Positions 358 through 14,000 of a stretch of DNA of 20,523 nucleotides are shown piece by piece. Made by a program: the position numbers and the translations under genes. The stretch's first letter is position 1, and every line of letters starts with the position of its first letter. Origin of the DNA: a virus; the IMG/VR virus record IMGVR_UViG_3300020436_000123, positions 1 to 20,523 of that record; one strand, written 5' to 3'. The notes under the pieces were generated by a model. It was not told the origin of the DNA and searched no databases. It was given only the letters and a program-made list of their open reading frames with translations.

Positions 358-1845
358 TTAAGCATCATTAGTAGCATTTGTAGTATAGAATAATTTGAGT
401 CCTATAAGTCTTGCATCTTCTGCCATATCATCATTTACATTATCATGATCTCTAGAAATTTTAAAAAAACAAACATCACCAACAGCAGGAGTACCAGCAA
501 TAGTCAAAGCACTACTTTCAGCCGAAACACATAAATCATTTGTGGCTCCTAAAGCATCATCTTGTACCACAACTGCCGTACCGTATGTAGCATTGATTGT
601 ATCATTATCAGAAACAGCTACACCTTCTAAAGACCATGCAACACCATCAGTATCAGATGCACTAGTAGTCCAGTATGCTTGATATGTTATCGTGCCTTCA
701 TTCCAACTTTTAGGAAAAGAAATTTGAAATTGTGCTGCTTCATCTGGTTCTGTAAATGTCAATGAAACATTATTACTTAAACTTTGTGCTGAACTTAATA
801 CTAAATTATTTTGATCCGTAACCGTAGCAACAGTAACAGTACCAGATATGCCTGAACCTGTAACAATCATACCAACTACAATAGTTCCACTGTTACCATC
901 GACTACTAATGCTGTAGTACTAGAGGTTGCACCATTAACATCTGCTGTTGCAACTGAACCAGCATCAAAATCTAAAACTTGTATATCTGGATTACCAGAA
1001 GTAGTTTCAATTTCTGTATGATTAGAACATCCATTTGAAACAGTTGGTTTCATGGCTGCAACTGGCACCCATAAAGTTTCTTTACCGGCAGTTTTAATTG
1101 TATTACTTGTAATTGTCGCCCCAGCTGAAAAGTTAACTATACCAGTAGCTGCAATTTCAATAGCATCTGTATCAGAAGCAACACCTATAGTTCCAGCGTC
1201 CTTTATAACAATATCATCCTTAAAAGTAACAACACCTGTACTAGCAAGAGTTATAACATCTGCGTGTGTAGCATTACCTATTGTACCAGCATCTTTAATT
1301 TTTATACTGTCATTAAATGTTGCTAACCCACCTTCACTGCCGTCAATTGTTAAGAAGGTTGTATCACTACCACCATCAGTTCCTTTAAATATAATATCAG
1401 TATCATTACCTTGAGCGTCAATAGTAATATTACCACTTGTCGTTGCTACATTTACAGCTGCATCACCAGCACTAATATCATCATAAGCTGCACCACCTAT
1501 ACCGATATCACTTCTACTAATTTTTTTAAGAACACCACCATCACTAACCAGTATATGATCAACATCACTTGCTGATGTAGTAGTTGCTCCAGCATCAGCA
1601 TTACCAGTTGATACTATTGTTCCTGTTACATCTGGTGCAGTAAGAGTTTGGTTTCCTGTTAAATCTACTGCGTCAAAAGTTACTTTGAAACCATCATTTG
1701 CGAAATCAGCACTGTTAACCGTAAAATTGGCAACACTAATAGTTCCGCTGTCTAGACCATTAACATCAGTTCTAAGTTTATTAAATTCTTGTCTAAATGT
1801 TTCTAAAGTGTCAGATGTTTGAACTTGACTTGCTGAAATTGCCAT
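358..1845 (-). CDS. Tail-fibre-like virion structural protein (495 aa)
   Basis: A probable peripheral tail or fibre protein. Residues 1-30 (TLETFRQEFNKLRTDVNGLD) look like the short helical N-terminus of marine-phage fibre-like proteins. Residues 40-180 are Thr/Asp/Gly-rich beta sequence. Residues 181-241 hold two tandem 31-residue repeats, each carrying IKDAGTIG, typical of repetitive fibre shafts. From about 256 (ETLWVPVAAMKP) to the end is a domain I associate from memory with T4-like marine phage structural proteins, containing FPKSWNEGTITYQAYW at 384-399. A 65-residue module (about 300-365) sits inside that domain and has a near copy in the 250-residue protein at 10256-11008. The start is the only ATG near a weak AGG site and is 6 bases from the stop of the preceding 75-residue gene. 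Exact role, including any receptor binding, is inferred. Confidence 0.75.
   Translation of the reverse strand: MAISASQVQTSDTLETFRQEFNKLRTDVNGLDSGTISVANFTVNSADFANDGFKVTFDAVDLTGNQTLTAPDVTGTIVSTGNADAGATTTSASDVDHILVSDGGVLKKISRSDIGIGGAAYDDISAGDAAVNVATTSGNITIDAQGNDTDIIFKGTDGGSDTTFLTIDGSEGGLATFNDSIKIKDAGTIGNATHADVITLASTGVVTFKDDIVIKDAGTIGVASDTDAIEIAATGIVNFSAGATITSNTIKTAGKETLWVPVAAMKPTVSNGCSNHTEIETTSGNPDIQVLDFDAGSVATADVNGATSSTTALVVDGNSGTIVVGMIVTGSGISGTVTVATVTDQNNLVLSSAQSLSNNVSLTFTEPDEAAQFQISFPKSWNEGTITYQAYWTTSASDTDGVAWSLEGVAVSDNDTINATYGTAVVVQDDALGATNDLCVSAESSALTIAGTPAVGDVCFFKISRDHDNVNDDMAEDARLIGLKLFYTTNATNDA
751..950 (-). repeat. Module copy A (about 65 codons) shared with the 250-aa protein
   Basis: This stretch encodes residues 300-365 of the 495-residue protein, with core motifs LVVDGNSGTI, GMIVTGSG and VTDQNNLVLS. 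Aligned by eye to 10292-10481 it shows about 149 matches over 190 bases with no gap, far above the similarity of surrounding sequence. Hydrophobic alternation suggests an all-beta fold. The similarity starts and stops inside both genes, so it is a module, not gene duplication. Confidence 0.85.
1123..1305 (-). repeat. Two tandem 31-residue fibre-shaft repeats
   Basis: Residues 181-210 and 212-241 of the 495-residue protein align with a 31-residue period. Each has IKDAGTIG followed by an Asp/Ala-rich turn, then an I.L/IAxTGxVxF strand ending in Phe. Plus-strand DNA shows the matching pair of TATAGTTCCAGCGTC-like and TATTGTACCAGCATC-like blocks. Repeats of this kind are typical of trimeric beta shafts in phage fibres. 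Confidence 0.8.
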
Positions 1846-2080: not shown

Positions 2081-5000
2081 TTATGTCGCCAATGCTATTG
2101 CTCTTAAATCTTTTATTCTTGGTACTTGAGCACTATTAGTTCCTTGTAAAATAATCTTAATAGCAAATCCAATAAAGGGTTCCAAAGGAGTACCTAAGCC
2201 ATCATCTGTTACACCAGCACTATACATATATTGTTGAAAATCTGTTTCTGATAATGACTTTTTAGGTGTTGTGTCTGGAACACCAGTTGTATTAAAATAT
2301 TGCCAACCAATATCATCAAAATCAGTAGAATCATCAGTTCTTAAAATTTTAAACATTGCAACAACATCAGATTCGCTTGTTGCATTTCCAGCAAAAAACA
2401 TTTTAATTGCTGTAGCAGGATTTTCTAATGCTACTTGTTTTGTACAATATATAGCCGAATTATTATCTCCTTCTGGGTCTGTAGATGGAGAGTAATCGAC
2501 TGATATTGTATTTGGTGATGTACCTGTAACTTTATTAATTCTATTACCTATTGCGAATATAGACATTCTTTGTGTATCAATTACAGGTGATAAGTTATCT
2601 GTAGTACTAGTTAAAGATAATATTACATCAAGAGATTTTGCAGCATTCATTTCATTAGTTTCGTTAATTGGTGAAGCAATTAACTTAGGAACATCAAAGT
2701 AATAATTATCATTTAATGGAATTATCCTAGCTGCAGTATCTTTTGTAAATGATTCTTGTGTTCCAGAAGGACTAGTACCACTAGTTGCCTTTACAGAAGC
2801 ATCAATTTTAGTGTTTGGTAATTCCATAGAAGCAATCATTGTTTGTATACCATCAAGCATTTTGTTTTGAGTAGCAGTTACATTCTTACCACCAACACTA
2901 ACACTTGAATTAGCTGACATACCAGAAACGCTCGTTGTAGTTTCAAAGGTATAAAAATCTAATTGATTTCCATTTGCAACACCACCAACATCACCAATGA
3001 GTTCGTGTGTTTTATTTACTTCTGTTAGTGGAACTTGAAACAATTGATATAATTCTACAATTGCCCCATTTGCATGAGAAGTTGCAGAACCACCACCAGT
3101 AACGCCTCTAGTTGCACTGGTTATATTAACTCCACTTATATTTTGGTGTTGATATGAAATAACTTCATCATCAATTTTTATAAAATGTAAAGAAGTAGTA
3201 TTTGCACCACTTCCATCATGTTTAAATTTACCAGTTGTTTCAGCAAAATTTGTACCACTTGTTAAAGTAATTGTGGTAGATGTATCAGAAATAGAACCAT
3301 TCAATGTAGTAGTAATACCTGTAGATACTCCAGCAATCGTTACATTATTTGGTTTAACTCTTGAAGCACCAGCATACATACTGTGATTTCTATGTGTTAC
3401 TCTTACTGTATTAACATTGTCTGTAAAACGTAAAGGATTATTGTCTAGTTTTTTATTAGGAAGATCGGTGTTATTTAAAGTAACTGTTCCAGCTTTGCTA
3501 ATATCAAACTTAGCTTTATTAACAGTAAATTTCAAATCTTCCATACCAGACATCGCCCAAGCAGAGTTATTATGAGATTTAAAAAGCACACCCATATGTG
3601 GTTGCATAGAAACTGTTCTAGTTCCACCAATTTCTAATTCACCCATTTTAGCAATCCATACCGACCAAGTGTTTATCTGTGCGGCTGTAAGAAGTGCAAT
3701 TGTATATTCTGTACCTTCTTCTACATAAACAGGAGATGGAAAAGTAACTTTAGTTGCTACTGAAGCATCTGTGGATGTTGTAACATCAGCGGGATAAAGC
3801 ACTTTTCTACCAAAAGGAAGTATTTTAGGCCCAGGATATCCGTTAACAACATTTCTAATTTCTACCCACATTGGAAGTGTTTGATCTTTATTTGCAAAAA
3901 ATAAATCAATGCTGGTGATAAAAATTCCACCAATAGCATCAACTTTAAATGTTTGGGCTAAAGGATCACCACCATCACCACCATCACCATCGTCAGTGCC
4001 TTCATCTGGAACACTAAATGTTCTACTATTAGTACTGAACTGTGAAGTAGTTTCATTTACGTTAGTTCTAACTAACTCAGCATTTCTTGTAGCAATAACA
4101 GTTTCTTGGTGAGTTTCAAGTATACCTTTTGCAAAATAAATAGTATCTGCAGCCGTAACTGGTTCGGGCACAGTGGAATTATCCGAATTAGATGTTAATC
4201 TAAATTGAACCTCACCAGTTTCAAATCTTTGGTTGCCAGTAACTTTTGGGTCTGGTATTGTAAACCTACCTTCTAGATTTCCAACTGTAGTTGTTACTAA
4301 AGGTTGACCAGCTGCTACAGTGCCAGAGGTAAACTCTGCACTTAAAGGTGTAGTGTGGGCCGATACATTCTTTTTATCAAAATAAGGGTAAACTCTTGTA
4401 TTTGGTTTTAGACCCCAAGCAAGAAACTGTATTGTTTGTGAACGGCAAAACGGTATTAGAGTATCATAGAGATGTCTAAACCCTTGCGATTCTTCATCAA
4501 CTTTTGGAACAACTTCTGTTCTTATTCCTGTTCTATTAAAATCTTGTCTTGAAGTTTGTATAATTCTGCCTGTGTTATTATTAACCATTTCTGTCGATGT
4601 ACTTACAACACCACTCCATCCAGTTTGCCATGCGTTCCAAACTGTGCCAATTTTATCTCTATTTGCAGCTAGAAATGTGTCATAATTACCTTCAACATTA
4701 ATAACAAGCCTTGGAGCAATTTCTGTTTCAAACCACTCATCAGAACTAGGAGTAATTTCAAGTATACCTAACCAGTTAGAAGTTAAAAGTGGTGTAACTT
4801 TTTCTATACTAGTTGCGTAAGGTTGTGAAGTAAATACTTCTTCTGTATAAGGTAGTGTTAAAAGATCACCAGTTTTTTGATAATGGTCTGTTGTTCTAGC
4901 AGAATCATTAGCAACATCTTCCTGTAGTCTTATAGCTTCAGTATGATGAATTGGACGCATTTCACCCTTTTCAAAATCCATACTGATTTTATAATCTACG

Positions 5001-8000
5001 TGTTGAGCATCTCCAACTCTATGACCACTAAAGTTATCTACAACAAATCCAGACTTAAAACGATTAAGACCATTTGCATCTTGAATTTCAAAACTCTCTG
5101 CATCTCGTTCAAGCATATTAAGAGCAGTATAGTATTCAATATTTTCAATACGATCTTTAAGCTTACCAATATCCTTCATGGTAAATCTTTGATTTTTTTC
5201 TCGTACAATTTGTACGTCATCTGGCTTAAATGTAAAAGCAGGAATAAACATTTTAGCAAGAAGCATTGCTCCATCATTTGGTTTTGGAAGTTGTGGAACT
5301 TCAGCTGATGCACCTTCTTTAACTGTTATTGTACCATCTTTATCAATGAATACCAAAGCTCTTTTATTAAGATAATAATCAAAATCAGCCTGAACACTTG
5401 TATTTGGTTTTGGAAAATTCAAAGAAGAAGAACCTGTACCAGAAAAAACTCTTGAAGCAAAATCAAAAGAATTACCTGTAATCTCATCGCAGCCACCGCC
5501 ACCATCAGTATAAAAACTAGTTTGCGTTCCAGCAATATTTGCAACTGTAGGTCTGAAGTCAAAACAATCTGCTAAAGGAAATACACCAGTTGGTTCTTTT
5601 TCATCTGGATCAATTTTAGTAGCAGAGTATGTTGGAATGTCATTATAATCCATTTGATTAACAGCAACTTCTGGTACTCGACTAATACCAGTATCCCCAT
5701 TAACATAAGAGTTTACAGAATAAAAATCACCAGTTCCACTATGTTCTAGGTAATCATGAATTATTAAAAGTCTACCAGCAGGAGCAGCCGCAGAAGGTTT
5801 ACGAACAATTCTTGAAATATCGTAATAATTATCTCTTTGTCCAGTATCTAAAGTATAATTACTGGTAACTACTGTACTACCAGCTGTTACAGCTGATACA
5901 GAAGTTGTTGCGCCAGTATAAACTCCTGTAATTGTTTCACCAACACTGAAATCTGTATCTGTATTGAGAACATAATACATAGGATTTGTTGATGTAATAA
6001 TTCTAGCTTTTGCACCACTTGTACCACCAGTAATTACTTCACCCCTAGTAAACGCACCATTTATAACTCCAATAGTTAATTTTGGTGGAACAGCATCTGT
6101 TCCAGTGGCCTCAGAGTCATACACAGCTTGTAACTTAAACGTATCTGCTCTACCAAGAGATATAGTCTTATCAGTAGGTTTACTACCAAAAGCATCAGTT
6201 GTGCCTGGCACAACCTTAACAGCTTTAGACAATACTGGTGTTTTAAGTTTAGGATCAACATTAGAGTTTCTAGATATTGTAGCAAGAATTTTAATTTTAT
6301 CACTATCTTCCAAAGCATCATTATTACCATCTTTAAAATCTATAGTTTGAGTTGCACTCCCACCAGCATTTGCAAACTGAACCTTTCCAGTTTGTGAAGA
6401 AGTCATATCTCCACTTGCGATATTATCAAAAATAGCACCGATTTCTACAGTACTACCGCTATTTTCAGAAATCATTGATATAGTGTAATCAGATGTTGTA
6501 GCAGTGGGTGCATAAGTTTCATTTGTTAAACTACCAATAGTTGCAACACCACTTGAAACCGTTCTAATAAATTGTCTACGTACACTATAAGTAATGTCAC
6601 TAGATGTTTTAATTACATCTTTTGACATTTTAATTACACCAATATTTTTTTCTGCATCATTTAATGTTGCACGTTTACGAATAGCTGTAGATGTTACTAT
6701 AGCATCAGTTGTAGGTGCAGAAGTGAATGAAATCGCTGTAGATGTTACAGCATCCACTGTTCTACCTTCAGCAGTGCCACCAGAACCAGTAGGTATTTCA
6801 ATAAGATCACCAACTGAAACTTCATTAGTATTAAATCCAGAGACACCAATTAAATTGTCTGTACCACTTGTTTCTGAACGATAACTACCAGAGAGAACAA
6901 CTTGATTATCAAGAGATAAATCAGCTGTAAAGTCAATAGCAGTATCAAGAGTATTTTGGTATACCTGTCTAAAATCTGAAAAAGAATATGTTCTTACTGA
7001 AGCGATCTCAATATCAGCGTTACTAGAGTTTTCTATCAACCCACCATCTTCAGCAGAGTCAGAAGCTATTAATTTTTCTCCAACTACAAACGTACCAACA
7101 ACATTTGTAAGATAAACATTTGTCGCAGATGTTCCTTCATCAGCAACAAAACCAGTTGCACCAGATGTAGCACCTTTAAGTTGTACACCGCCAGCAGAAT
7201 GAGTTGCTAAAAGAGTAGGACTTGGTGTATCAGTCAAAGTCAAATATGTAAATGGTTTAATATCAAAAAGGTATAGTTTAAATTTTACTGGGTTATTTCC
7301 TACAGTATTAAGATATCCACCAGTAGCAGTACCACTATGATATTCCATGTGTCTAACTCGGCCCAAACCAATCGTAGTTCCAGCTTTTTGGCCTCTGACA
7401 GCAGTTTGTGTGTCTGTAAATTCTACACCGCCAAAAGGTGTAATTGTAGAACCACCATCAGCAGTAATATCTGGTTGGTGGTGAATATTTTGAATGAATG
7501 TATAGTTTCCAAGATTAAAAATAGAAACACCATTATTAACAGAGTTTGTATCTCTTGCTTTATTTACATCTTTAATAGTAGGTGCAAGTTTTTCTATTTC
7601 AAATCCCTTGACATATGCTTTACCTGGCGATACTTTAAAAGCAAGTAGATTTTCTGAAGCAGTATTTCCATCATCTGTAATACTTCCAGTAGTAAAAAAT
7701 CCTTCTTCATCATCAATAGTTACGCACTCATTTGTTGTAAACTGAAAAGGACGTACTGTATAATCACCAGACTCATCGAAAGTTCTACGAGCAAAAGTTT
7801 CTTCAAGAACAGAATATTCCGTAGTTCTAACTTTGCTTTGTAACATCCCATTATCAATTTTCATAAGTTCAACGAAATTGTCATCAGCGATAGAATTTAA
7901 TGATAATGTTGATAGAGTTAAATTAATTTGTAAACGATGACCACCTTTAGCTGCAAAGTTGTTTGAACCATTAGCATTATCTAAAAGAGTTGAGTCTGCT

Positions 8001-8713
8001 TCTGGTGTAACTATTTTCTCTTCAATAGTAAATCCAACTCTAGCACTGGCATCAACATTATACTTTGATAATACGACAGACTGTTCAGTATTTTCAATAA
8101 ACATTCCACGAATATAATAAATACCAGATTCTACATTTGCAACAGAACCTTTCGCAGCTGCAGGCCCTTTTGGATCAGTTTTTGATGTTGATGTTGCAGT
8201 AAAAGTTGTAGCTGAAGCAACATTTGTACTATAAGAAGTAGTATGAGTAATACCAATATCCGCAGAAATATTCTCACCGTCAGCAAATGTGGCGGTAGTA
8301 TTATCTGTACCAGTATCCATATATCGAATATAAAGAACAGGTTGTTCTGTAGTAGAACCAAGACTAAATCCAGTTACCCTAGCTTTTACACCTGTAGTTG
8401 CACCAGTAATTGTAACAGGAGTCGTTGCGTTATAATATTGTGATATACTGATATTTTCTGAATTAAATTGTGTTGCAAGTTTTAACGTATCAAAATCTCT
8501 ACTAAAACTAATTTGACCAGGCAACACCATTGCACCTTCTTCAAAAACATGATCTCCATGTTTTCGGATTTGATCTTGTAGTGCTGTCTGTAACTGTGTT
8601 AGTTCTCTTCCTTGAACAGCGAAGCCAGGACGAAAAAGTATTCTATTGAAGTTATTCGCACTATTAAAATCGTCATAATAAGGTGCAACATTTAAATTTG
8701 TTTTTTGTGCCAT
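2081..8713 (-). CDS. Giant virion structural protein, DUF4815-like N-terminus (2210 aa)
   Basis: The largest gene, about a third of the window. The N-terminus (APYYDDF, RILFRPGFAVQGRELTQLQ, residues 12-44) matches what I know of DUF4815, found at the N-terminus of large T4-like marine phage structural proteins. Three GE-x-I / TSGA-type beta modules occur at plus-strand about 8230-8425, 7045-7190 and 5880-6045. A charged helical segment around residue 1200 (VREKNQRFTMKDIGKLKDRI) is followed by further domains. An acidic Gly/Asp hinge at 1574-1583 leads into a C-terminal part beginning DPLAQTF, with TSIDLFFANK and VEIRNVVNGYPGP. It starts one base after gp8's stop and has only a weak ribosome site. 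The position is that of T4 genes 9-12, none of which I can recognise here. It is probably a peripheral baseplate or fibre-anchoring protein; the function is inferred. Confidence 0.85.
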   Translation of the reverse strand: MAQKTNLNVAPYYDDFNSANNFNRILFRPGFAVQGRELTQLQTALQDQIRKHGDHVFEEGAMVLPGQISFSRDFDTLKLATQFNSENISISQYYNATTPVTITGATTGVKARVTGFSLGSTTEQPVLYIRYMDTGTDNTTATFADGENISADIGITHTTSYSTNVASATTFTATSTSKTDPKGPAAAKGSVANVESGIYYIRGMFIENTEQSVVLSKYNVDASARVGFTIEEKIVTPEADSTLLDNANGSNNFAAKGGHRLQINLTLSTLSLNSIADDNFVELMKIDNGMLQSKVRTTEYSVLEETFARRTFDESGDYTVRPFQFTTNECVTIDDEEGFFTTGSITDDGNTASENLLAFKVSPGKAYVKGFEIEKLAPTIKDVNKARDTNSVNNGVSIFNLGNYTFIQNIHHQPDITADGGSTITPFGGVEFTDTQTAVRGQKAGTTIGLGRVRHMEYHSGTATGGYLNTVGNNPVKFKLYLFDIKPFTYLTLTDTPSPTLLATHSAGGVQLKGATSGATGFVADEGTSATNVYLTNVVGTFVVGEKLIASDSAEDGGLIENSSNADIEIASVRTYSFSDFRQVYQNTLDTAIDFTADLSLDNQVVLSGSYRSETSGTDNLIGVSGFNTNEVSVGDLIEIPTGSGGTAEGRTVDAVTSTAISFTSAPTTDAIVTSTAIRKRATLNDAEKNIGVIKMSKDVIKTSSDITYSVRRQFIRTVSSGVATIGSLTNETYAPTATTSDYTISMISENSGSTVEIGAIFDNIASGDMTSSQTGKVQFANAGGSATQTIDFKDGNNDALEDSDKIKILATISRNSNVDPKLKTPVLSKAVKVVPGTTDAFGSKPTDKTISLGRADTFKLQAVYDSEATGTDAVPPKLTIGVINGAFTRGEVITGGTSGAKARIITSTNPMYYVLNTDTDFSVGETITGVYTGATTSVSAVTAGSTVVTSNYTLDTGQRDNYYDISRIVRKPSAAAPAGRLLIIHDYLEHSGTGDFYSVNSYVNGDTGISRVPEVAVNQMDYNDIPTYSATKIDPDEKEPTGVFPLADCFDFRPTVANIAGTQTSFYTDGGGGCDEITGNSFDFASRVFSGTGSSSLNFPKPNTSVQADFDYYLNKRALVFIDKDGTITVKEGASAEVPQLPKPNDGAMLLAKMFIPAFTFKPDDVQIVREKNQRFTMKDIGKLKDRIENIEYYTALNMLERDAESFEIQDANGLNRFKSGFVVDNFSGHRVGDAQHVDYKISMDFEKGEMRPIHHTEAIRLQEDVANDSARTTDHYQKTGDLLTLPYTEEVFTSQPYATSIEKVTPLLTSNWLGILEITPSSDEWFETEIAPRLVINVEGNYDTFLAANRDKIGTVWNAWQTGWSGVVSTSTEMVNNNTGRIIQTSRQDFNRTGIRTEVVPKVDEESQGFRHLYDTLIPFCRSQTIQFLAWGLKPNTRVYPYFDKKNVSAHTTPLSAEFTSGTVAAGQPLVTTTVGNLEGRFTIPDPKVTGNQRFETGEVQFRLTSNSDNSTVPEPVTAADTIYFAKGILETHQETVIATRNAELVRTNVNETTSQFSTNSRTFSVPDEGTDDGDGGDGGDPLAQTFKVDAIGGIFITSIDLFFANKDQTLPMWVEIRNVVNGYPGPKILPFGRKVLYPADVTTSTDASVATKVTFPSPVYVEEGTEYTIALLTAAQINTWSVWIAKMGELEIGGTRTVSMQPHMGVLFKSHNNSAWAMSGMEDLKFTVNKAKFDISKAGTVTLNNTDLPNKKLDNNPLRFTDNVNTVRVTHRNHSMYAGASRVKPNNVTIAGVSTGITTTLNGSISDTSTTITLTSGTNFAETTGKFKHDGSGANTTSLHFIKIDDEVISYQHQNISGVNITSATRGVTGGGSATSHANGAIVELYQLFQVPLTEVNKTHELIGDVGGVANGNQLDFYTFETTTSVSGMSANSSVSVGGKNVTATQNKMLDGIQTMIASMELPNTKIDASVKATSGTSPSGTQESFTKDTAARIIPLNDNYYFDVPKLIASPINETNEMNAAKSLDVILSLTSTTDNLSPVIDTQRMSIFAIGNRINKVTGTSPNTISVDYSPSTDPEGDNNSAIYCTKQVALENPATAIKMFFAGNATSESDVVAMFKILRTDDSTDFDDIGWQYFNTTGVPDTTPKKSLSETDFQQYMYSAGVTDDGLGTPLEPFIGFAIKIILQGTNSAQVPRIKDLRAIALAT
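3965..3994 (-). repeat. ACCATC-type microsatellite encoding an Asp/Gly hinge
   Basis: Plus-strand sequence is a run of CACCAT/ACC units; on the coding strand it reads as alternating Asp and Gly (residues 1574-1583 of the 2210-residue protein). It separates the central region from the DPLAQTF domain and should be a flexible acidic linker. The repeat could vary in unit number by slippage without breaking the frame, since its units are multiples of three. Confidence 0.75.
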
Positions 8714-10255: not shown

Positions 10256-11008
10256 TTAATCTCCAGCAGTTCTTAAAATTTTTAATGCAGCTGTGAATGT
10301 TAATGCAACATCATTAGTTAAACTTTGTGGATGACTTAGTACCAAATTATTTTGATCTGTAACTGTAACAACACTAACCGTACCACTAACACCTGATCCT
10401 GTAACAATCATTCCAGTTGCAATTGTTCCAGAATTACCATCAACAACCAATGTGGTTGTATTACTAGTTGTACCATTAACATTCGCAGTTGCTGTTGTTG
10501 GTGAAGAAGCAAAAATTACTAATGCTTGTTCATTAAACAATTTTGCAGCATTAACCGCATTATCAGCAATGGTTAATGCACCAGTATCAGCAAGAGTTGC
10601 ATCACCAGAAATTACGTTGTCTATAAATTTAGACGTTCCAGCATCGTATATTAATACACCACCTTCTGCTGGAGAAGTGATATTAGTATCTGTTAACCCT
10701 GCTAAGGTATACTCACGGCTATCTACATATGCTTTAATACTTTGTTGTGTTGCAAGATGAGATGCACTATCTGATGACATATTATCCTCATCTTTTATTG
10801 CAGAACCACTGACACCAGTATTAAAAACAGGAGAAGTAAGAGTTATAGTTGTAGCATCAGCAGAAATACCAGATGCTAAAACATTACCATTTCCAAGGGC
10901 AGTATAAATTTCTGTAAAATTTGCATTGATTTTAGTACCAGCACTTCTAAGAGAATCACCAGTACCATCATTTGCTGATGAACCTAGACTTATTGATTGA
11001 TATGCCAT
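10256..11008 (-). CDS. Fibre-like virion protein between the gp7 position and gp8 (250 aa)
   Basis: The N-terminus (SLGSSANDGTGDSLRSAG then INANFTEIYTALG, residues 7-38) is the pattern I know from many marine phage fibre-like structural proteins. The middle has LATQQSIKAYVDSRE (85-99), also common in tail-fibre sequences. Residues 174-239 are a module nearly identical in design to one in the 495-residue protein and similar at DNA level. The protein ends 11 residues after that module, so it has no separate C-terminal adhesin or chaperone domain. It has a good ribosome site (AAGGAG) and its own TATAAATA late promoter. T4 has no gene between 7 and 8, so this is an insertion relative to T4 and may be an acquired extra gene. 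The role, perhaps a small fibre or wedge decoration, is inferred. Confidence 0.75.
   Translation of the reverse strand: MAYQSISLGSSANDGTGDSLRSAGTKINANFTEIYTALGNGNVLASGISADATTITLTSPVFNTGVSGSAIKDEDNMSSDSASHLATQQSIKAYVDSREYTLAGLTDTNITSPAEGGVLIYDAGTSKFIDNVISGDATLADTGALTIADNAVNAAKLFNEQALVIFASSPTTATANVNGTTSNTTTLVVDGNSGTIATGMIVTGSGVSGTVSVVTVTDQNNLVLSHPQSLTNDVALTFTAALKILRTAGD
10292..10495 (-). repeat. Module copy B (about 65 codons) shared with the 495-aa protein
   Basis: This encodes residues 174-239 of the 250-residue protein, with LVVDGNSGTI, GMIVTGSG and VTDQNNLVLS matching copy A at 751-950. About 78% of bases match by eye over the first 190 positions without gaps. It occupies almost the entire C-terminal quarter of its protein, whereas copy A is internal. 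Confidence 0.85.
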
Positions 11009-11039: not shown

Positions 11040-14000
11040 TCATTTAATATTAATAACAGATGGAAGAGCAAACGCTTTTTCTTTTGGATGAGTCCATATA
11101 GATAAAGGAAAATCTCTACTGTTACTTTGTTCTTCATCTTCTAATAGAAGATCAAAATTATCTTCTAATAATATATTTTCTGCTTCATCTTGACCGTTAG
11201 CAGCATTTCCATCAATTCCCTCAAGACCAATTCCATCATATTGAATAAAATCAACAAAAGCAATACTACCAAATTGATCAAAATTAGGCCCAGCTGCAGT
11301 ATCAGTGGCATCTTCTAAAATTATATTATCGTTAACATTATCAATAGAATTTGCAACACTATTAAAATTAGATATATCACCATCTAATTTTAAAGTTCCA
11401 CGATTAACATCAGGCCCAAGAGAGAAATCTGGTGGTGATGCGTTATCAGAAAAATCGAAATGTAGTTTTATAGTAGAATCATCAGCAAGAGAGACAGCAG
11501 TATCCAGTGTTAATGTTAAATTCGGTGTTGTTCCAGTTACATTCGTAACTCTTACAACTGAACTAATTCCAGCATTATCAAAAACGTACATATCAACAGA
11601 AGGCACTGTATTATTAGTAATTGCATCTATAACTACAGTTGTGGAACTAGATGTAGCACCAGCAACGGTTGCGATAAGTTCTGTGTCATCAAAACTTTGC
11701 ACAAATCCTTGTTCATTTGTAAATTTTTCAAGATCAATTTTACCACTATTTTCCATAAATGGAAAAAAGTTTAATATTTTTAATGCGTTTGGATTTGATC
11801 TATTAATTGGTTGTGTAGATAAATCAACTTCCATATGTTTTTTTAAAGTAAGGTCACGTTTTGTAGCATTAAACTTAACATCATTATCAGTGGTTAAATC
11901 ATCTATGTCTAATTTTTTAGCAACACCAGCACCAGCATAAATTGAAGTACCATCTGTATCAGTTCCTAATCTACGAGTAATTAAAGATTGAGGAAATACA
12001 ATTTCAAACATAGAAGCAAGTTCTGGTGTAAATGTATCAGTATCACCAGTATATTCTGGTATATCCCTACCAGTAAGAATACTAATACCAGCAGACACTT
12101 GTGTTGCAATACTAACTTTACCAAATACATTAAATCCAGTAGGATGAACAGCTTTTCTTAATTCTTCAAGGTAATCTGATAAAGATGCTCCAACGGCAAC
12201 TTCGTATGAAAATTGTTGATAAAAATATGAGTCTTGTATACGAACTTTAGATTCACCAAGTACACTCAATTTATCAAAAGGATATGACCCAGATTTTGTA
12301 GAAACTAATCCGTTAAAAAGCAAACCCTTTGCAGAACTAACTTTTACTATAGTTGCGTTTGCAGTAGCAGTAGTTATTGTTCTGGTTTCACCATCATGAA
12401 AAACTTCTTCTCTTATTATTTTAGAGCCATCTTCGTAAATCAGATCATTTCCAGTTTCAAGAATTATTTTAGAATTTGCAGATTCAGATGGAGTTATGGA
12501 CAAGAGTTGTGTATTAGAATCAAAACTATGTACTGTTCCAGAGTGGGAAGTTAAAGTGTCACCTGTACTAAATGTTCCAGATATATCTTTTACAATTGTA
12601 TGAACTTTAAATATAGGTTCTGGTACTGTATCATATTCAAACCCAGAATCTACAATTTGAAAATCATCTACTCCACCAATGTTACTTGTGGTAGCAATTA
12701 GTTTGGTATTACTTCCGCCACTAGTCGTTACTGTTACTATAGGAAGAGCACTATAACCAGCACCGCCGTTTATTAATTCAATTTTTCTAATACCTTTATG
12801 ATCTGAATCATTAGTTCCAAGTGATCCTGTAGTATCTGGTTCTAAAACAAATTCACCACTACCAGCTTCGCTAACAATATTGAATACATCTAAAGATGTT
12901 TCTGCAATTAATATATCAGCTTCATATCCAATACCACTAGTGTTTTCTAAAAGAATATTATCTCCAGCATTTGACCCAGAAGTATCAGACCCATTCAAAA
13001 CTATATTTGTTATTTCTCTTACAGCTTGTTCACCACTTTCAATTAATAATTGACCACCATCTGTTCCAGAGTTACCAGCAGTTCCATCCTCTAATCTTAA
13101 CATTCCACTAATAACTGAAACTTTACCAACAGCACTAGAAGTGTTTGCTTGATTATCAGCAGTAAATACTAGAGCATCACCTTCTGCATAACCAGTTCCA
13201 GCATTATCAATAATTACATCATCAATGGAACCTACACTTACATTATCAACATTAAGATTAACTAAACCATTACCAAATGAATTATCCGTAGTTATTTCTT
13301 CGGATTTACTATAAAGCATACCATTAGAAGTTACAGAAGAAGATACTATAATATTTTTAATGGTAAAATTATAAACTAAATTATTAGTTTTTGATATCGC
13401 TGTTAAATTTTCACCAGCAATAAAATCAGATAGACCTTTTGTTATACTATTTGGGTCTAATTCATACTCAACAAATGTTACACCAGCTTGTAGAAATACC
13501 GTAGCACCAACAATTATAGCCGAAGCAACAGAAGTTTCACCAGTTATCTTTTGTCCTATGAAATCATCAACTGAAACATTTGCCGGTAAAGTAGTTCTTA
13601 TAATTTTTGGTATTGTCCATTTACCATCAGAAACCCTCATCATAAATTTTTCTGGATATGTTATTGTAGCATCATCATCTAATATTAACCTAAGAAAAAA
13701 TTTATGGCCCTCAGAAGTTCCCTTTGCAGTATAAAGTTCACGGATAGCTTTAATTAGATTTCTTTTTGAAACACCACTTGCAAGTGTTGCTGGAATAACA
13801 CTCATAAACATTCTACGGAAATTTTCAAGCATAAAATCTACCGTATTATCTGGTTTTGCATATTCCATCAATTGTTGAATATTTTGTACTGGATTAGCAC
13901 GATAAGAAATTATAGTAGCTTGAGCACTAGATGTTGAACCAATAATAGTTTCACCTTCGATAAACTTTTGGTTCGCAGAAATAAATATTCTACCATTACT

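Follow-up and report, generated by a model that had tools for sequence, protein, structure and literature searches.

The viral record IMGVR_UViG_3300020436_000123 raises the question of why a segment of about 65 residues in a fibre-like protein has a near copy in another protein encoded 9.5 kb away. We analysed positions 1 to 20,523 of this record, and the whole stretch of 20,523 nucleotides is referred to as the window. An earlier note on this DNA had proposed that a mobile beta module was inserted in a loop of the fibre-like protein by recombination between virion genes. Our best explanation, to which we give a probability of roughly 0.75, is that the segment is a self-folding beta domain which travels between virion genes, inserts in surface turns and has been gained by this fibre.

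Three module copies in the window

The 495-residue fibre-like protein is encoded on the minus strand at 358..1845, and a 250-residue protein at 10256..11008, also on the minus strand. Residues 299-365 of the former and residues 173-239 of the latter are identical at 53 of 67 positions (79%; BLASTP, E 2e-18). At the DNA level, 750-951 matches 10291-10492 at 158 of 202 bases (78%; BLASTN, E 7e-46) without gaps, and the ends of the match are sharp. The 60-base flanks beyond the matching segment are unrelated, with 16-23 of 60 bases identical. These results confirm the near copy and the unrelated flanks described earlier, and the residue numbers given then for both copies are correct within one or two. 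With 751-950 as the query, the whole record showed DNA-level matches at these two places only. A strict profile of the module had no match among 9,233 reversed ORFs, so the similarity is not a low-complexity effect.

The second copy lies near the C-terminus of the 250-residue protein (residues 172-240; 10289..10495, minus strand). The N-terminus of this protein is T4 gp9/10-like, matching the baseplate wedge-tail fibre connector family phrog_677 (E 1.8e-13) and PF07880 (E 1.4e-4, below the cut-off). A third, divergent copy was detected by profile (45 bits) in a 1106-residue baseplate/structural protein, at approximately residues 896-970 (~11451..11675, minus strand). It lies near the C-terminus of that protein, outside the part aligned with Melnitz phages.

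The cassette interrupts a fibre domain that is continuous in relatives

Relative to its relatives, the 495-residue protein has 70 extra residues (298-367, VATADVNG...LTFTEP; 745..954, minus strand). The 39-sequence alignment places the host domain on both sides of this cassette. Residues 250-297, ending in VLDFDAGS, precede it (955..1098, minus strand) and contain the strand just before the site in the predicted model; residues 368-495, starting with DEAAQFQ, follow it (361..744, minus strand) and contain the strand just after the site.

We scored the parts before and after the site with separate profiles. Both were found in 109 ORFs among the matches listed, some of which are the same contig under two locus ids, so that independent sequences are fewer, with more than 50 distinct junction sequences. 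The spacing at the site is 0 residues in 83 of these ORFs, 1 in 20, 2 in 4 and 5 in 1, and it is 70 in the window alone. The junction reads LDFDASS-DEHAQFQ in relatives, and in the window LDFDAGS and DEAAQFQ are separated by the 70 residues. The statement in the earlier note that LDFDAGSV and the following piece are normally almost adjacent is correct, and the homologues without exactly this segment which it proposed to look for make up 108 of the 109 ORFs, rather than all homologues carrying it. We conclude that the cassette was gained by insertion in the 495-residue fibre-like protein.

The C-terminal domain of this protein is common, with at least 568 confirmed stretches in viral contigs and six in bacterial assemblies. 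Four bacterial assemblies with relatives of the fibre domain were found to have no module. The insertion into this particular protein was seen in a single metagenomic contig, and a scan of viral contigs for the downstream junction revealed no second true case, its six matches all being unrelated sequence. Direct repeats of at least 7 bases, which a transposon would leave, were not found on either side of the cassette, and hence we see no sign of transposition.

A single contig raises the concern of an assembly chimera, in which a repeated sequence was misassembled and joined the cassette to the fibre gene. The abundance of the module in marine viromes and the lack of a second contig with the junction would fit such an error. 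However, the longest word common to the window copies is 14 bases, which is short for joining by an assembler. Both junctions coincide with domain edges and keep the reading frame, and equivalent insertions occur in other proteins on several independent contigs. We regard misassembly as very improbable. Even less credible is the idea that the segment is old and integral to the fibre domain and was lost in parallel by the relatives. We found no point in its support; the short form prevails in the 108 ORFs, which are widely diverse, and the presence of the module in unrelated proteins is unexplained by descent within one family.

Predicted structures of the module and its host domain

The AlphaFold2 model of the module alone, based on 50 aligned module copies, is all-beta with six strands (pLDDT 97.4, pTM 0.84). 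This confident prediction points to a self-folding domain. The in-place model, based on 39 aligned sequences, locates the cassette site between host strands 39-44 and 121-126. The host fibre domain is mostly well predicted, and the blocks after the site mostly reach 85-95. This model was built without module rows, and the cassette is not resolved in it, as no aligned row had it. When fibre relatives and module copies were aligned together, the module was placed in wrong columns, and this alignment was dropped. Following the two predictions suggested earlier, alone and in place, the module is predicted to fold alone, and its site to be a turn between two strands of a continuous host core.

In the in-place model, the host domain around the insertion is a CBM-like beta-sandwich. 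The best fold neighbours of the fibre C-terminal domain (window 361-1098, minus strand) include the carbohydrate-binding modules CBM35, CBM36 and CBM61, at E ~0.001-0.01 and with modest TM-scores. The CBM-like identity is suggestive only, and the domain may be a receptor-binding tip.

Fold searches with the module led to small beta domains in phage tail proteins and F1-ATPases, and no neighbour had E <0.001. In the viral fold library, matches were numerous among proteins of uncultured phages and among virion or fibre proteins of cyanophages (TM ~0.7-0.85, 20-34% identity), of which none reached E 0.001. We read the F1-ATPase neighbours, together with weak Pfam and NCBIfam matches (JAG1, RimM, riboflavin synthase), as a similar small barrel and not as kinship.

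The module occurs in many virion proteins

Scans of viral contigs with the module found relatives with up to 88% identity, and the last scan gave at least 517 confirmed stretches. Over the sequences analysed, the strict profile detected 171 module copies in 130 distinct ORFs, nearly all on viral contigs. The metagenome search that had been recommended thus shows the module to be widespread, and in some records it is present two or three times, in several genes. Once the module was masked, the carrier ORFs could be sorted into 14 classes, between which BLASTP gave no link at E 1e-4 over 40 residues; a profile-level comparison could merge some of these classes further. Among these classes are podophage fibre Gp80, a tail fibre of phrog_9851 with CBM5/12 repeats, the SU10-type adaptor (head-tail adaptor), a lambda gpM-type minor tail protein, a tail collar fibre, a giant protein of phrog_358, a nozzle-like tail protein and others. 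We infer the label ‘nozzle-like’ from the position beside the adaptor gene.

The nozzle-like tail protein in HMO-2011-type phages (L183:5659-8079 and relatives) is listed by PHROGs as phrog_5107 ‘amidase’. This label looks doubtful for a gene that adjoins the adaptor gene and has an annotation as tail structure.

Four classes beyond the window fibre provide empty-site comparisons. In an SU10-type adaptor (L166), the module lies between FRIKRN and LGVETKKLK, where CRP-603, CRP-345 and CRP-207 have a short link. Two phrog_358 proteins (L243 and L141) carry the module at a position where alignment shows an empty site in Melnitz-3 and in the 2210-residue phrog_358 protein of the window (2081..8713, minus strand). 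Among nozzle-like proteins, those of CRP-603 and CRP-207 are without modules, and those of CRP-345, L137 and many contigs have one or more, some positioned differently. In the tail fibre of a marine virus (L107:1675-6198) with CBM5/12-type repeats, one repeat is interrupted by the module, and its sister repeats are without it.

As for the other window copies, the relatives of the 250-residue protein diverge at the module site, and no exact empty site could be identified there or for the third copy. The relatives of the L182 and L172 proteins are too divergent to be compared cleanly. In another class, an 858-residue ORF (L391:1079-3652) has the module between NARTGDGAG and SAVTQTGNSQFG.

Loop insertion of a mobile beta module, as first suspected, is supported by the empty site in the fibre relatives, the location in a turn, the independent folding and the approximately 14 dissimilar carrier classes. 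By our explanation of a travelling self-folding domain, a six-stranded beta domain of ~65-70 residues would move as a unit between virion protein genes of marine tailed phages. It would enter surface turns in frame, and the host fold would stay intact. The window virus would have gained it between two strands of the C-terminal CBM-like beta-sandwich, in the turn that joins them, and it carries two further copies in the gp9/10-like protein and the baseplate protein.

Origin of the fibre cassette

The pair of copies in the window could also be the whole story, if the cassette was duplicated within the genome between the 250-residue and 495-residue genes, in either direction. The two copies are identical at 158 of 204 bases, and 145 were predicted from protein identity and codon usage (P 0.005). 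Their third-position identity of 46 of 68 exceeds the codon-usage expectation of 34.6 (P 0.003), and in the module tree, which is poorly resolved, the row nearest to the 250-residue copy is the fibre copy. The last two points favour copying within the genome. On the other hand, the same codon is used at 30 of 53 identical residues, which is not above expectation (25.4, P 0.12). The silent sites are near-randomised, so the pair is not a recent copy.

Many viruses have the module, and copies of other viruses are equally close to the fibre copy in DNA (L092, 77%) or closer in protein (L086, 88%). The longest identical tract of the fibre copy is 40 bases with the tail fibre of another virus, in contrast to 14 bases with the 250-residue gene. 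Of 300 simulations with the codon usage of the window, one reached a tract of 40 bases. This difference in tract length favours exchange between viruses, and we consider duplication within the genome rather improbable. The mobility of the module proposed in the earlier note is supported by its approximately 14 carrier classes, whereas a direct exchange between the two window genes is not established, since equally near or nearer copies exist in other viruses. Judged from these sequence comparisons, the 250-residue gene 9.5 kb away is not the obvious source of the fibre cassette. The module has quite probably spread through recombination, either homologous or illegitimate, of co-infecting phages.

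Selection and possible function

Between the two window copies, dN is 0.17-0.18 and dS is 0.61-1.40. Amino acid identity between module copies in different proteins is 71-88%. The polar loop residues N5, G6, D17, G21, T22, Q46 and N47 (module numbering) are conserved in 12-14 of 14 copies, and nearly all of these copies come from different proteins. The restrained amino acid change and the polar loop residues common to unrelated proteins argue for a use beyond spacing.

The module might instead be a neutral spacer, which is tolerated and not used, and conserved only as folding requires. The virion sites at which it occurs are many and share no position, and many relatives of each tested host protein live without it, both of which agree with this idea. 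However, the strong amino acid conservation is set against near-random silent sites, and the conservation of polar loop residues extends across host proteins. A neutral spacer is unlikely, albeit less so than duplication within the genome.

Insertion in a turn suggests that the module may be displayed on the surface of the particle. Possibly, it makes weak contacts there with host-surface polysaccharide or with neighbouring virion parts. Glycan binding, which the earlier note had suggested beside decoration, is plausible by analogy. For phage Ig-like domains, a contribution to infection through weak contacts with carbohydrates has been proposed, with verification still pending (PMC8718954). 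The same role for the module is the most economical guess, which we offer tentatively, and stabilisation of the particle surface is the main alternative.

Relation to known domain families

We found no convincing match of the module to Pfam, PHROG or NCBIfam models, and no Ig-like, Big or FN3 model among its Pfam matches up to E 1. The consensus module had no BLAST match among 50,697 phage records, a search in which the low-complexity filter may have masked the query. The window copy had one weak match in the same records (CRP-345, E 0.009).

Ig-like accessory domains (Big_1, Big_2, FN3) are the closest parallel in behaviour (Fraser et al., 2006, as cited in PMC8718954). Like the module, they are small, independently folding beta domains on virion proteins of unrelated phages, and are dispensable in some. 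In contrast, the module is short and six-stranded, has barrel-type neighbours and no Ig sandwich, and is located inside turns as well as near ends.

In phage T5, the distal tail protein pb9 has an extension with an OB fold (PMC7291167). The window module does not match the pb9 B domain model (PF21430), whereas divergent sister copies in nozzle-like proteins (L124) reach 29.8 bits with a cut-off of 27. The alignment of these sister copies matches that of the module with an hhalign probability of 90% (E 1.7e-6). This suggests a remote kinship of the module with the T5 pb9 B domain, linked at the sequence level via intermediates only. The divergent sister copies (TVLVNGGSQTG...DNAAITF, residues ~250-400) are located in L137:2704-4881, L124:1548-4352 and L183:5656-8079, and pass or approach the PF21430 cut-off.

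Of 32 module members, 7 matched the phage endosialidase beta-barrel (PF12195) weakly, with E 0.028 at best, and the window copy, with 11.8 bits, is far under the cut-off of 35. The phi92 endosialidase is among the fold-search matches of the module, with a low TM-score (0.44).

Smug et al., 2023 (PMC10684548), have described fragments shared by phage proteins that are otherwise unrelated, receptor-binding and tail proteins in particular. That survey treats such domain mosaicism in general terms. In our best reading, the module is a new family of a known kind, the promiscuous virion accessory domains, Ig-like in behaviour and not in sequence, its novelty being relative to the collections searched.

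Discussion

For two decades, phages have been known to carry mobile Ig-like domains (PMC8718954). The module adds a mobile family of distinct sequence, for which there are empty sites and a fold predicted with high confidence. Divergent module copies occur in an HMO-2011-type phage, and phages of this type have been described as dominant and broadly distributed in the ocean (PMC9038755). Among cultured phages, Roseobacter phage CRP-345 has divergent copies in gp51. Taken more broadly, and with more doubt than the role by analogy above, the module may represent an unnamed family, hardly represented among records of cultured phages when these are searched at BLAST sensitivity, which would serve as a plug-in adhesion domain in marine phages of several tail types and pass between viruses by recombination at the DNA level.

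The module offers a clean comparative test, in which one domain occurs in many unrelated proteins and the same site is found with and without it. The natural insertion at the fibre turn identifies this turn as a permissive site of a common fibre domain.
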